A stretch of 64,000 nt of DNA, from the IMG/VR virus record IMGVR_UViG_3300042452_000786, positions 1 through 64,000 of that record; one strand, 5' to 3'. Both the position numbers and the translations under genes were made by a program. This document shows, piece by piece, positions 4,327 through 61,890 of the stretch. This DNA comes from a virus. The first letter of the stretch is position 1. Each line of letters begins with the position of its first letter. The notes under the pieces were generated by a model. That model saw only the letters and a program-made list of their open reading frames with translations, searched no databases and was not told where the DNA came from.

Positions 4327-5277
4327 ATGGACAACGCAGTAACTGCACCAGCAAAACTTCCTAAAGTTCCAGATAAAGCTTTGGAAGCATTAAAGGAAGG
4401 AATTCAATCAGTCCTTGATTCCAAAGACTGGTCTGGATTTCTTACCGCAATCAGACGTATCCACAGCTACAGCTTCAACAATCGCATGTTGATCATGCTG
4501 GGACAATCCAAGCGTGGCTGGGATTTATCTCCGTTTGTTGCAGGTAAAACAAAATGGAACACTGAATTCAATCGCCAACTAAAAGAAGGCGAATACATCA
4601 AACCAATTTGGATTCTTGCTCCTGTTCTCATTGATAAGCGTGACGACAATGGCAATACCATTCGGAAGCCAGATGGTTCTACGGAAAAGGTCCCGATTCG
4701 TTTCCGTGGCGTACGAGTTTATGACCACCGTCAAACTCACGGTGATCCGATCCCTGAACCTGACACAGAAAAAATGATGTCTGAATTGACTGCAGACATT
4801 TCAGAGCAAGTAATGAATGGGATGGTCAACGTTGCTACAGCAAGATCTATTAACGTCGAACAAGAAATTTCAAAAGGTAACATGGGCGGCGCACACGGAC
4901 GCTGTTGGTTCTTGAATCAAGGTCGCGCCAGCAAGATTGAAATCTTGGAAGGTCTTAACCTTGCAACGCGTGTCAGTGTCATGGCTCACGAGCTAGGCCA
5001 CGCTATCCTCCACAACCGTGATGAGTACCAAGAACACGACTCCGCATCAATCAAAGAACTTGAAGCAGAGTCCGTGGCGTATCTTGTTTGTTCTCATTAC
5101 GGTGTGGATCTTGGTAGTCGCAGCTTCCAGTACATTGTTCATCACAACACTGCATCTGATGATGTCGTCGCGGATCTCCTGAAGTCAGGTGACAGGATCT
5201 TCAAGGCGTATGCTGAAATCACAACGGTCGTAGACAAGCACCTGGAAACGTTTAACCTGAAACCTGTGGTACATTAG
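4327..5277 (+). CDS. ArdC-like zincin antirestriction-type protein
   Basis: 316 residues from ATG 4327; a longer TTG start at 4261 would run through the leader hairpin and is unlikely. The N-terminal domain (LDSKDWSGFLTAIRRIHSYS, NNRMLIMLGQ, FVAGKTKW) matches the ssDNA-binding region of ArdC-like proteins. The C-terminal domain carries a zinc protease motif MAHELGHAILH, followed by ELEAESVAYLV with the third zinc ligand Glu. Family members protect incoming DNA from host restriction or act on DNA-bound proteins; the role here is inference. Confidence 0.8.
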   Translation: MDNAVTAPAKLPKVPDKALEALKEGIQSVLDSKDWSGFLTAIRRIHSYSFNNRMLIMLGQSKRGWDLSPFVAGKTKWNTEFNRQLKEGEYIKPIWILAPVLIDKRDDNGNTIRKPDGSTEKVPIRFRGVRVYDHRQTHGDPIPEPDTEKMMSELTADISEQVMNGMVNVATARSINVEQEISKGNMGGAHGRCWFLNQGRASKIEILEGLNLATRVSVMAHELGHAILHNRDEYQEHDSASIKELEAESVAYLVCSHYGVDLGSRSFQYIVHHNTASDDVVADLLKSGDRIFKAYAEITTVVDKHLETFNLKPVVH

Positions 5278-5280
5278 TCC

Positions 5281-5451
5281 GGTCCGGCCGGACCCAGTGG
5301 CCACTGGTAACGCAGCTATCCTCGTCAATGGCTGTGTTAAAAGAGGAGTCACCGTTGAGTTGAAGCAACGGTGAAGCCAACATAAAGTAAGCGAGACAGC
5401 AGGCCTACCTGCCGTTAAAATCCGTGCATCCGGAATCTCGCTCACTTTTTT
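5281..5451 (+). ncRNA. Candidate structured RNA: overlapping palindromes and hairpins
   Basis: Starting 4 nt after the ArdC-like stop are two overlapping perfect palindromes, 5281-5294 (GGTCCGGCCGGACC) and 5294-5307 (CCAGTGGCCACTGG). A perfect hairpin ACCGTTG/CAACGGT follows at 5351-5372, then a large closing stem AGCGAGA (5390-5396)/TCTCGCT (5436-5442) that encloses GCAGG/CCTGC. No frame with a convincing start is present. It could be a small RNA, a processed 3' UTR, or protein-binding DNA palindromes. Confidence 0.45.
5387..5451 (+). terminator. Terminator-like stem and T-run abutting the next start codon
   Basis: The stem GTaAGCGAGA (5387-5396) with TCTCGCTcAC (5436-5445) is followed directly by TTTTTT (5446-5451). 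The next gene's ATG is at 5455, so no ribosome binding site fits between them. Either the structure is a conditional attenuator, or translation of the next gene starts without a Shine-Dalgarno sequence. Confidence 0.55.
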
Positions 5452-5454
5452 GTA

Positions 5455-6045
5455 ATGAAACTCCAGGCTGATCTTTTTCCTTTTCTTACAACGCTGGAAG
5501 ATAACTGGCAAGTAATCCTTGAAGAACTGGATAACATTCTTTACAACGAAGTTGAATCAAATAAAAGTTACTTTGCACCCTGGCATGAAACAGACATCTA
5601 CAACGGAAGCTGGGATGTCTACGGTCTCTATTCTTTTGGAGACAAACTAGACAGTAACTGTAAGTTCTGCCCCAGGACTACAGAAATTGTTGAACAGATT
5701 CCAGGTCTTGTAACTGCTGGGTTTTCTGCTCTTGGTTTGAATACACACATCAAACCGCACGTCGGCTACACAAATGAAGTGTTGCGCTGTCACCTTGGTT
5801 TAATGGGGCCACAGCTCCACAAACCAGAAAAGATCAAGAATCCCTGGCTTAGAGTTGGTATCGCACCAGAAGACATGCTTCCTGCTTGTGGACTGCGAGT
5901 GGACGACAAAATTCTGCAATGGGAACCAGGCAAAGCTTTTGTGTTTGATGACACGTACGAGCATGAAGCCTGGAACTACGGCGAGCGCACGCGGTTTATT
6001 CTCCTTATCGACTTTAAGAAGAACGAATTTTCTGCTTTGCTTTGA
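5455..6045 (+). CDS. Asp/Asn beta-hydroxylase-like 2-oxoglutarate/Fe(II) oxygenase
   Basis: 196 residues. The double-stranded beta-helix core is seen in NTHIKPHVGYTNEVLRCHLGL (iron His and cosubstrate region) and in FVFDDTYEHEAWNYGERTRF, where the distal His precedes the 2-oxoglutarate-binding Arg, as in the Asp_Arg_Hydrox family. These enzymes hydroxylate Asp or Asn side chains of proteins. Phage copies have no settled substrate. The start directly follows a terminator-like structure, which suggests regulated expression. Confidence 0.85.
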   Translation: MKLQADLFPFLTTLEDNWQVILEELDNILYNEVESNKSYFAPWHETDIYNGSWDVYGLYSFGDKLDSNCKFCPRTTEIVEQIPGLVTAGFSALGLNTHIKPHVGYTNEVLRCHLGLMGPQLHKPEKIKNPWLRVGIAPEDMLPACGLRVDDKILQWEPGKAFVFDDTYEHEAWNYGERTRFILLIDFKKNEFSALL

Positions 6046-6050
6046 GGGTG

Positions 6051-6118
6051 GGACTGCACCGTGATCATCGGTACAGTCCGTCAGTTACCAGACAAGGGAA
6101 GCGATAAAAACCTTGTCT
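6051..6118 (+). other. Two hairpins in the 3' region after the hydroxylase
   Basis: GGACTG (6051-6056) pairs with CAGTCC (6074-6079), with an inner ACCG/CGGT. AGACAAGG (6090-6097) pairs with CCTTGTCT (6111-6118). Neither is followed by a real T-run, so they look like mRNA-stabilising or processing structures rather than intrinsic terminators. The whole gap 6046-6313 has no convincing long frame. Confidence 0.45.
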
Positions 6119-6173
6119 CCCTCTAGAATAAGGCCCTGTCATCGCTCTTCTTCAGGCCCCAAGCAAATCTAAC

Positions 6174-7550: not shown

Positions 7551-7784
7551 ATGCAAATCGGTTACGTACTATGCTCTCCAGATCTGAACCGTATTCTGTG
7601 TCTGGATAACAAGAAGCAAGGTGTAGAACTTGTTGAAGTTAAAAGCACCAAAGAAATCAACAGATCGATCTGTTTATCTGATCTAACAGAAGTCAAAAAT
7701 GTTTACGAAAGACTTCGTGAAGCTGGTCTCGTCCAGGGCTTGGACATTGTTAACGTGGCAAAGCTCTACAAAAAGTTCTATTGA
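7551..7784 (+). CDS. Hypothetical protein before DNA polymerase
   Basis: 77 residues. N-terminal strands (IGYVLCSPDLNRILCLD, VELVEVKSTKEI) and a C-terminal helix ending in a basic LYKKFY. No known family. It lies 12 nt before the DNA polymerase gene, so it is probably co-transcribed and may be an accessory replication protein; this is inferred from position only. Confidence 0.55.
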   Translation: MQIGYVLCSPDLNRILCLDNKKQGVELVEVKSTKEINRSICLSDLTEVKNVYERLREAGLVQGLDIVNVAKLYKKFY

Positions 7785-47225: not shown

Positions 47226-47309
47226 GGGAGCATGGCGGAATTGGTAGACGCAGCGGATTTAAAATCCGCAGGCGGCAACGCTGTGGGGGTTCAAGTCCCC
47301 CTGCTCCCA
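47226..47309 (+). tRNA. trnL: tRNA-Leu (anticodon UAA)
   Basis: Acceptor arms GGGAGCA (47226-47232) and TGCTCCC (47302-47308), discriminator A. Anticodon stem GCGGA/TCCGC with loop TTTAAAA, reading anticodon TAA. The extra variable arm and the GTTCAAGTC T-loop fit a class II tRNA. On the plus strand while the flanking genes are minus. Confidence 0.92.
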
Positions 47310-47311
47310 TT

Positions 47312-47384
47312 GCTGGATTAGCTCAGTGGTCAGAGCACTCGCCTTGTAAGCGAGGGGCCGTCAGTTCAAATCTGACATTCAGCT
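47312..47384 (+). tRNA. trnT: tRNA-Thr (anticodon UGU)
   Basis: Acceptor GCTGGAT (47312-47318) pairs with ATTCAGC (47377-47383) with one G-U pair. Anticodon stem CTCGC/GCGAG encloses loop CTTGTAA, giving anticodon TGT. T-loop GTTCAAATC is present. Only 2 nt separate it from tRNA-Leu, so they are co-transcribed. Confidence 0.9.
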
Positions 47385-59921: not shown

Positions 59922-61060
59922 TCAAACGATGGTGAAAGCTGCGGTGACGAAGTCCTTGTTCAGGTTGGCAAAGCCAGCGTACAGCTGCCAAATCAAGATG
60001 ATAAAGCGGCTGAAGTCATCGTTGTTGTTGATGAGAACCTGAGCGTTGGGGCCACCGATGCCCACGCCAACGGCCTGAGGACCGAAGAACAGAGCAGGAG
60101 GAGTGTTGTGAGACACAGCGCCGAGACCGTCGCCAGTGTCCACAGTGATGGACTTGTCAGCAAAGTTGGTGGACTCGAAGAAACGTACGCCTTCAAAGAC
60201 AAAGCCAGAAGGCATGATCGGTTCACCAGCCACGAATTGAGCTTGGCCGTACTGACCGCCGCCATAGATGGAGGCGTTGGGAGCCATGGCACCCATAAGG
60301 GGGTTAGGCTGGCCCATGCCAGGGTAACGAGCCACTTCACGGAAACCTTGGTCAGCACGCAGATCCTTCATGAAAGAGGGATCAGCAATACAGCGGTAGT
60401 AACCGTCAGCAAAGACAGGCACATTGCGCTTGCGGAGTTGCTTGACAACTTCCAGAAGGTCAGTTTTGACGTTGAACTTATAACGCTCAGAAGCGTATTC
60501 TGTAGCGGAATAAGCAGTCAGCGTGGTAGAGCCAGTCTTGATCTTACCGTTGGGGTAGTAGTAACCACCTTGGGTGTCAGAAGAGGCACCACGAGCTTCC
60601 GATTTCGAAAACTCATCAAGGAACACACGATCGCGCCAGCGGCGATAGTCGTCTAGCAGGGTCAGCGAACCGATGGACTGGTGGAACATGTTAAGGTTCC
60701 CGGTGTCCAGCAGCAGACGCTGAGCGGTCATCAGAGTCTCACGAGCAATTTTGAAAGTGCTCGGGAGGTTGGAGTTGTTCGGGTCGGCAGGACCAGTGTA
60801 CTCACGCAGAGAGACGAGCACTTTGTCCTTAACGATGGAGCGGCTATTAGCCGTACCAATCGTTTGGTCTTGGGTACGCTCACGCTGAGTTTTGGTGCCG
60901 GGGTTGCCCCAGAAACGGTACCGGTCTAACTGAACAGTTTGACCAGGCTGTTTAGTGAAGTCGTGGACAACAACAGGCTCGGCTGCCATTTCCACAATAT
61001 AAGCCGGGTGGGGACGGTACAGCTCCGCGCCCAACAGCTTGGGAAAATCGTTCTCCTGAT
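59922..61060 (-). CDS. Major capsid protein, 3' exon (3' splice site approximate)
   Basis: The open frame reads ENDFPKLLGAELYRPHPAYI and continues for about 375 residues to FVTAAFTIV. It has typical capsid features: LDRYRFWGNPGTKTQRERTQ (N-arm), LLLDTGNLNMFHQSIGSL, GYYRCIADPSFMKDLRAD and FFESTNFADKS. Upstream the frame runs into group I intron core sequence with no credible start or ribosome site, so it needs splicing to the small exon near 61.9 kb. The boundary lies somewhere in 61040-61080. Start at TTG 61034 would be implausible. Confidence 0.85.
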
Positions 61061-61890
61061 CTCCAGTCTCCTGAAGGGGTGGACTATCTCTTCACCCTGT
61101 AAGGGTGCCGGGCGCTAATGGCGTATTACGAATGAAGCGTCATTCACCGCCTAGTCTCTGCACCTTCCAACTACGTACTTAGTTGGCTTGGCTCAGGATT
61201 ACCCTCGACTTGACGTTAGGGCTTCCCTGAATTCACCCGGTTTTCACTGATCAGTTGCCTGATCAGGCGACAACGTTGACTACTCAGCTAAGTCGTGTTA
61301 GGATTGGAATCAAGTTGTTTTTATACAACATGGAACCAAAACTTGTTCCTGGATTTGAAAACCTTTACTTGAGCTTTTCTGGGACTCCTTATCAAAAAAT
61401 CAATGAAGACTTTGTTGAATTAAAGGTCAGCTCATCAAGCATGTACGACAGGGTTTCTGTTCTTAAAAATGAAAAGAAAGAAAGGCACCATGTACACGTT
61501 CTTATGGCTGTGACATTTTTAGATTTAGATTTAGCTTTACACGGAACCGGAAGTGCTTCTCTTCAAGTTGATCACAAAGACGGAAACAAAAGAAACAATT
61601 CTCTTGAAAACCTTGAAGTTGTTACAAAAAGAGAGAATTACGATAGGGCGTTAAAAGCTGGGTGCTACTCTAAAAATGGTTACGCCAGTAAAGGTAGGCC
61701 AAAGAAAACATTAAGAAAGTTTTCGGAGGATGACATTGTGCAGATTAAAGAAATGAGATCAGACGGTCTTTCTTATAGAAAAATTGCTGCTTACTTTAAC
61801 TGCAATCACTTGGCCATTTATCAAATCTTAAAAGGAAAAACCTATCAGGATCTGAGTTAGCTATCGATAAACATGTTGGTAATTCAGCGT
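61061..61890 (-). ncRNA. Group I intron interrupting the major capsid gene
   Basis: Minus-strand core elements in order: P at 61219-61233 (AATTCAGGGAAGCCC), Q at 61185-61200 (AATCCTGAGCCAAGCC), R at 61147-61164 (GGTGCAGAGACTAGGCGG), S at 61081-61093 (GAAGAGATAGTCC). GACTA of R pairs with TAGTC of S as P7; GAATG/CATTC is P8; CCAACTA/TAGTTGG is P6a. These match group I consensus closely, near the tRNA-Leu-type introns. Splice points are approximate; the region between P1 and P3 holds the endonuclease ORF on the other strand. Confidence 0.88.
61330..61860 (+). CDS. HNH homing endonuclease, coded antisense inside the group I intron
   Basis: 176 residues from ATG 61330 (upstream in-frame codons overlap the intron core). 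VHVLMAVTFLD, GSASLQVDHKDGNKRNNSLE and NLEVVTKRENYDRA form the HNH_3 domain with the His-Asn nuclease pair. The C-terminus, FSEDDIVQIKEMRSDGLSYR then KIAAYFNCNHLAIYQILKG, is a helix-turn-helix. It lies entirely within the intron but on the opposite strand, so it needs its own promoter. The protein should cut intron-less capsid alleles to mobilise the intron. Confidence 0.88.
   Translation: MEPKLVPGFENLYLSFSGTPYQKINEDFVELKVSSSSMYDRVSVLKNEKKERHHVHVLMAVTFLDLDLALHGTGSASLQVDHKDGNKRNNSLENLEVVTKRENYDRALKAGCYSKNGYASKGRPKKTLRKFSEDDIVQIKEMRSDGLSYRKIAAYFNCNHLAIYQILKGKTYQDLS

Follow-up and report, generated by a model that had tools for sequence, protein, structure and literature searches.

The pRNA of phage phi29 oligomerises by loop-loop contacts. 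GOLLD and ROOL, phage-encoded structured RNAs which are often found near tRNA genes, are described as homo-oligomers with kissing loops, and GOLLD can exceed 800 nt (PMC12286853). In HIV-1, the dimerisation initiation site is described as a hairpin-loop palindrome that starts RNA dimers (PMC4588261). Structured or small RNAs have also been described from cyanophages, namely manA, wcaG, PhotoRC-II, glnA and CfrI, the last being reported as antisense to psbA (PMC2864571, PMC12197685). The element discussed here, RNA A, is a strongly folded stretch of about 170 letters, found at positions 5279-5451 (+ strand) of 64,000 nucleotides of viral DNA (the window), part of a 75,874-base IMG/VR virus record. 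It is closest in kind to GOLLD and ROOL without being a member of either. Like them it is phage-encoded, and a tRNA-Thr or tRNA-Leu lies directly 3' of its P5 stem in 20 of the 31 distinct sequences of the class named after Synechococcus phage S-CBS4, but not in the other 11, nor in 17 window- and S-EIV1-type loci scanned. A likeness in assembly is suggested for RNA A by one feature, the self-complementary H1 and H2 loops. Unlike GOLLD, however, it measures about 170-190 nt, and it has no match in Rfam. The parallel with HIV-1 is an analogy of mechanism only, the virus and the RNA being unrelated; in contrast to the phi29 pRNA, RNA A is not consistently found beside packaging genes, and in contrast to CfrI it has no fixed adjoining gene.

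The window shares 27 of its 142 ORFs with Synechococcus phage S-EIV1, including PolA and ThyX, versus 6 of 142 with S-CBS4 (ORFs of at least 60 aa, E no higher than 1e-6), so that its source is most likely an S-EIV1-related freshwater phage of Synechococcus. RNA A is flanked there by the genes of an M78/IrrE-like peptidase and an aspartyl/asparaginyl beta-hydroxylase. The initial annotation had pointed to two palindromes, a small perfect hairpin, a large closing stem and a T-run, all of which are found where it placed them, the palindromes corresponding to hairpins H1 and H2 with one base in common (Table 1). The small hairpin is indeed present, with a stem of 9 bp and not the 7 bp given, and the hydroxylase ATG does follow closely on the T-run, after three bases instead of four. 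This ATG was also correctly said to lack a ribosome site, but the situation is ordinary in the window, since AGGA, GGAG or GAGG stands upstream of only 7 of the 45 ATG ORFs of at least 150 aa.

Table 1. Features of RNA A and its immediate surroundings in the window.
Feature	Position	Strand	Basis and remarks
-10-like box TACATT	5270-5275	+	4/6 matches to TATAAT; overlaps the upstream peptidase stop codon; starts 18 nt 5' of the H1 centre
H1, perfect 14-bp palindrome GGTCCGGCCGGACC, hairpin with self-complementary centre	5281-5294	+	Palindrome scan; 61/63 relatives
H2, perfect 14-bp palindrome CCAGTGGCCACTGG, hairpin, GGCC loop	5294-5307	+	Fold and palindrome scan; loops GGCC, AGCU, GCGC in relatives
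H3, 12-bp hairpin, loop CCUCGUCA	5308-5339	+	Predicted fold
P4, 9-bp hairpin, loop AGUUGAAG	5349-5374	+	Predicted fold; covariation in A2
Linker CAUAAAGUA, equivalent to GAUGAAGCA in relatives	5381-5389	+	Alignments A1 and A2
P5, stem closing the three-way junction	about 5384-5448	+	Fold, covariation, R1 match at 5347-5453
P6, hairpin, loop CCUA (CCGA or CCGCA in relatives)	5399-5412	+	Fold and alignments
P7, hairpin, loop UGCAUC (UGAA or UAAUGC in relatives)	5421-5434	+	Fold and alignments
T6 run 3' of P5; possible terminator, in the window genome only	5446-5451	+	Sequence; T5 or more in 7/63 relatives
Aspartyl/asparaginyl beta-hydroxylase gene (neighbour, outside RNA A)	5455-6045	+	PF05118, E 3.4e-43

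A single perfect palindrome is no rarity here, with six of at least 14 bp observed in the window versus 3.64 expected (besides the two of RNA A, three perfect ones of 16 bp are at 7659, 25631 and 26209), but none of 100 dinucleotide shuffles contained two 14-bp palindromes within 30 nt. The + strand of 5270-5470 folds at -77.0 kcal/mol against an average of -54.0 for shuffles (z = -4.87), a stability reached by none of 200. Since the minus strand of the element is stable as well (z = -4.20), fold energy cannot tell the strand. The + strand is favoured by the paired positions, where 42 G-U cells stand against 16 A-C cells, by the -10 box, and by the tRNAs downstream. By eye only, the H3 loop could also form a candidate pseudoknot with a downstream GGGGAU or GAGGA.

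Used as a blastn query against phages, the window element found no match, nor did the elements of loci L191, L286 and L364, and the hydroxylase used as bait retrieved no viral contig. A protein search with the peptidase gave 20 loci, many of which show hairpins in the same order, though in other letters, between the peptidase and PolA, behind a TATAAT box. Motif scans, a stem filter and the covariance model R1, which covers P4, the linker and P5-P6-P7, extended the set to 76 curated loci. These amount to 63 distinct sequences, drawn from IMG/VR contigs and from the isolates S-CBS4 and S-EIV1; the loci of the two isolates came to light when relatives were used as blastn queries, and both are unannotated. 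By our own sorting, 17 of the distinct sequences are of window type, 15 of S-EIV1 type and 31 of S-CBS4 type. A first degenerate pattern had returned 120 stretches, nearly all due to chance. Of 61 matches, 41 passed one of the stem filters; among the 20 failures, eight also have long palindromes and were judged by eye to be homologs, with a predicted fold that lacks P5 in some. These eight are excluded from the 63, and the other 12 were taken as chance. Over genome contigs, a weak test of host genomes, a pattern gave one match, which falls by chance within a Clostridia MAG coding frame. Some positions are invariant by construction, because the search patterns prescribe them: parts of the linker, two pairs of P6 together with its loop, and the loop of P7 along with the pair that closes it. 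Loci L005-L019 come from the protein search and are free of both pattern and stem filters.

On the window, R1 scores 71.2 bits, and it finds S-CBS4-type members outside its own alignment, such as L101 at 29.3 bits; in S-CBS4 itself and in L301 it has no match, both having been placed by blastn and by eye. Each record has one convincing match (further weak ones occur in 6 of 37 records) and not the several copies of a REP-like repetitive palindrome. The architecture is not uniform: S-EIV1 and members of L381 type are without the P4/GAUGAAGCA module, which is therefore not essential, L410 has no H1, and L403 is cut off. Downstream of the same peptidase, L002-L004 carry a reduced element in which the CUCGUC-type hairpin loop is kept, with no R1 match (as in L002 and L004).

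Do the stems hold when the letters change? Since MAFFT misaligned P6 and P7 across all classes, pairs were counted lineage by lineage; alignment A3, which contains weak matches, was dropped. In sets for which the selection filters require stems, 90.0% of 402 cells are paired in A2 (15 sequences; slid controls 35-49%), 95.9% of 220 in A5 (11 sequences) and 98.0% of 252 in A6 (14 sequences), so 90-98% for the structure versus 28-50% for slid controls across lineages. Both sides change in 21 of 28 pairs in A2, including 8 of the 10 pairs of P4, in 9 of 20 in A5 and in 12 of 18 in A6, and for each alignment none of 500 shuffles has as many of these pairs, or as high a covariation score, as the alignment itself. 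For further pair types, the result is weak in A5, where 25 of 500 shuffles score as high, and unexceptional in A6, where 452 of 500 do. The initial annotation had proposed covariation analysis in relatives; compensatory changes in three phage lineages support the stems. The H3 loop is CUCGUC also in L007, L275, L286, L343 and many other loci, and UUCAGGC in most other relatives. The P6 and P7 loops are conserved within classes, which the search patterns impose in part. For the S-CBS4-type 5' domain, a tRNA-like reading was considered and dropped.

In 61 of the 63 sequences H1 is centred on a self-complementary hexamer, of which six kinds occur (CTGCAG in 37, TCGCGA in 11, CTCGAG in 5, TGATCA and TTGCAA in 3 each, CGGCCG in 2), a list compiled after inspection of the sequences. 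In many members H1 consists of a 3-bp stem, a single unpaired base and a palindrome of six bases, which reads CUGCAG, CUCGAG or UCGCGA; in others the palindrome is longer. A random hexamer has a 1/64 chance of being self-complementary, and it is therefore unlikely that this property would be kept through six different hexamers without a pairing constraint. As the innermost positions of H1 cannot pair within one hairpin, the constraint would be either intermolecular pairing or a palindrome at the DNA level, and RNA is preferred because in many copies the extra base of H1 is confined to its 5' side. The H2 loops of the window type and the S-EIV1 type are self-complementary too (GGCC, AGCU, GCGC), as are some of those in the S-CBS4 type; those of S-CBS4 and its closest relatives are not. 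These self-matching loops suggest that copies of RNA A pair with each other; for the homodimer as such, we put the case for and the case against at equal weight.

A -10-like hexamer with at least 4 of 6 matches precedes H1 in 55 of 61 sequences. It reads TATAAT, TATAGT, TATACT or TACAAT in relatives and lies mostly 18-21 nt before the H1 centre; the best hexamer has only three matches in the remaining six sequences and lies elsewhere in some others. The window's own box is weak, and no good -35 box was found.

At the gathering score, Rfam 15 has nothing at 5279-5451 of the window, and lax searches of the window, S-CBS4 and L380 gave sub-threshold chance matches or none. Neither the GOLLD nor the ROOL model matches RNA A, nor do the models of those cyanophage RNAs listed above that have one. 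Among the titles and abstract openings found by searches for cyanophage RNAs, none describes RNA A. The window also holds a group I intron at 61060-61300 (-) (RF00028, 93.7 bits) and, at 6044-6165 (+), a second recurrent structured element, TTACCAG N5 GGAANC N3 AAAAAC, also present in L002-L021 and others (38 of 442 loci). This element contains an apparent pseudoknot whose arms co-change by eye (GCGAT/ATCGC, CCGT/ACGG, CTAC/GTAG, CCAT/ATGG), and has a weak minus-strand similarity to CyVA-1, under the gathering score.

What, then, could RNA A be doing? The initial annotation offered a conditional terminator, or a small RNA fused to a leader, ahead of the hydroxylase, with 2-oxoglutarate or iron as candidate ligands. 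A cis-acting attenuator, riboswitch or conditional terminator would suit the window, where T6 follows P5 just before the ATG, and it would suit L007 and L275, where the hydroxylase is directly downstream as well. These three are nevertheless the only ones of 35 loci with the gene nearby, L021 has peptidase and hydroxylase with no RNA A (and no model match) between them, and a T-run of five or more ends only 7 of the 63 sequences. RNA A thus does not sit consistently in the 5' UTR of a single class of gene, as a riboswitch of the hydroxylase would, and what is found is not the GC-rich stem with a conserved T-run before a gene that marks an intrinsic terminator or attenuator. What lies downstream varies: other loci have a tRNA there, or a glutamine-II riboswitch, or genes with no relation to the hydroxylase. 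Control of the hydroxylase is accordingly very improbable, and the gene context lends no support to an aptamer for either ligand. A processed 5' leader aiding tRNA maturation or expression would account for the tRNAs behind S-CBS4-type members, but hardly for the 11 sequences and 17 loci with no adjoining tRNA, and we give it little credence. Glutamine-II riboswitches follow RNA A and its tRNA in L256 (3777-3833), L232 (2802-2856, -) and L101 (9823-9875), and in S-CBS4 one precedes the small gp007 gene. S-CBS4 gp086 (L440 26648-27379, +) is annotated as RNase E. The window has a tRNA-Leu(TAA) and a tRNA-Thr(TGT) side by side at 47226-47384 (+), the two kinds that alternate directly after S-CBS4-type RNA A.

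Equally hard to sustain is a packaging RNA of the phi29 pRNA kind. S-CBS4-type phages do carry RNA A on the strand of terL, some 600-900 nt downstream of that gene (about 1450 in L232), but window-type and S-EIV1-type phages carry it near ThyX, and the motors differ, since S-CBS4 terL matches no other record at 1e-30 and the window and S-CBS4 share few ORFs. A DNA-level element, whether palindromic operator, cruciform, origin or recombination site by the promoter, would explain the near-perfect palindromic symmetry of H1 and H2 next to that promoter, and the good folding of both strands. It is improbable, if slightly less so, given the excess of G-U over A-C cells on the + strand, the covariation of P4 to P7 with their conserved non-palindromic loops, and the 5'-only extra base of many H1 copies, which breaks DNA symmetry and fits an RNA loop. 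There is also the possibility, which we find doubtful though worth keeping in mind, of a monomeric antisense-type regulator, in which the H3 loop (CUCGUC or UUCAGGC) and the P4 loop would be seeds for phage or host mRNAs and the palindromic hairpins only stabilising caps. The two conserved, alternating types of H3 loop agree with this; the self-complementarity of H1 through six hexamers is left unexplained by it.

The reading we prefer is that of an autonomous structured RNA, which from the sequence evidence is very probably what RNA A is. The small-RNA half of the initial annotation accordingly stands, with covariation in three lineages, a -10-like box and one convincing copy per record. We lean somewhat towards action in trans inside the host cell, as opposed to the virion, and the full description, an autonomous, trans-acting, probably homodimeric and single-copy Synechococcus phage ncRNA of about 170-190 nt, appears likely from the comparative data. 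Its layout begins with the -10-like box about 12 nt before H1, followed by H1/H2, a specificity-like H3 with one of two conserved loops, P4 with a loop of GAGUNGAAG type, the linker, and the P5/P6/P7 junction. RNA A would be transcribed by the host RNA polymerase during infection, its 3' end coming from tRNA processing where a tRNA adjoins and from a terminator in the window. Two molecules would then kiss through their H1 loops, with H2 perhaps as a second contact, and the remaining loops would contact, in trans, an RNA or protein of the host or the phage. More speculatively, and with the balance against it for now, RNA A may be a new class of small phage RNA that self-assembles through H1 and H2 kissing hairpins into dimers or open chains with conserved loops in multiple copies, a compact counterpart of GOLLD and ROOL that spread between unrelated Synechococcus phages by manipulating their shared host.

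RNA A is a conserved RNA family with no Rfam model, and its presence in two isolated phages with named host strains, Synechococcus CB0101 for S-CBS4 and PCCC-A2c for S-EIV1, makes it testable at the bench. It is common to phages with little other homology, and its flanking genes vary between lineages; both features favour a function inside infected Synechococcus cells over packaging or the control of one neighbouring gene. If its loops really pair, it would offer a small system for asking what self-assembling phage RNAs do.
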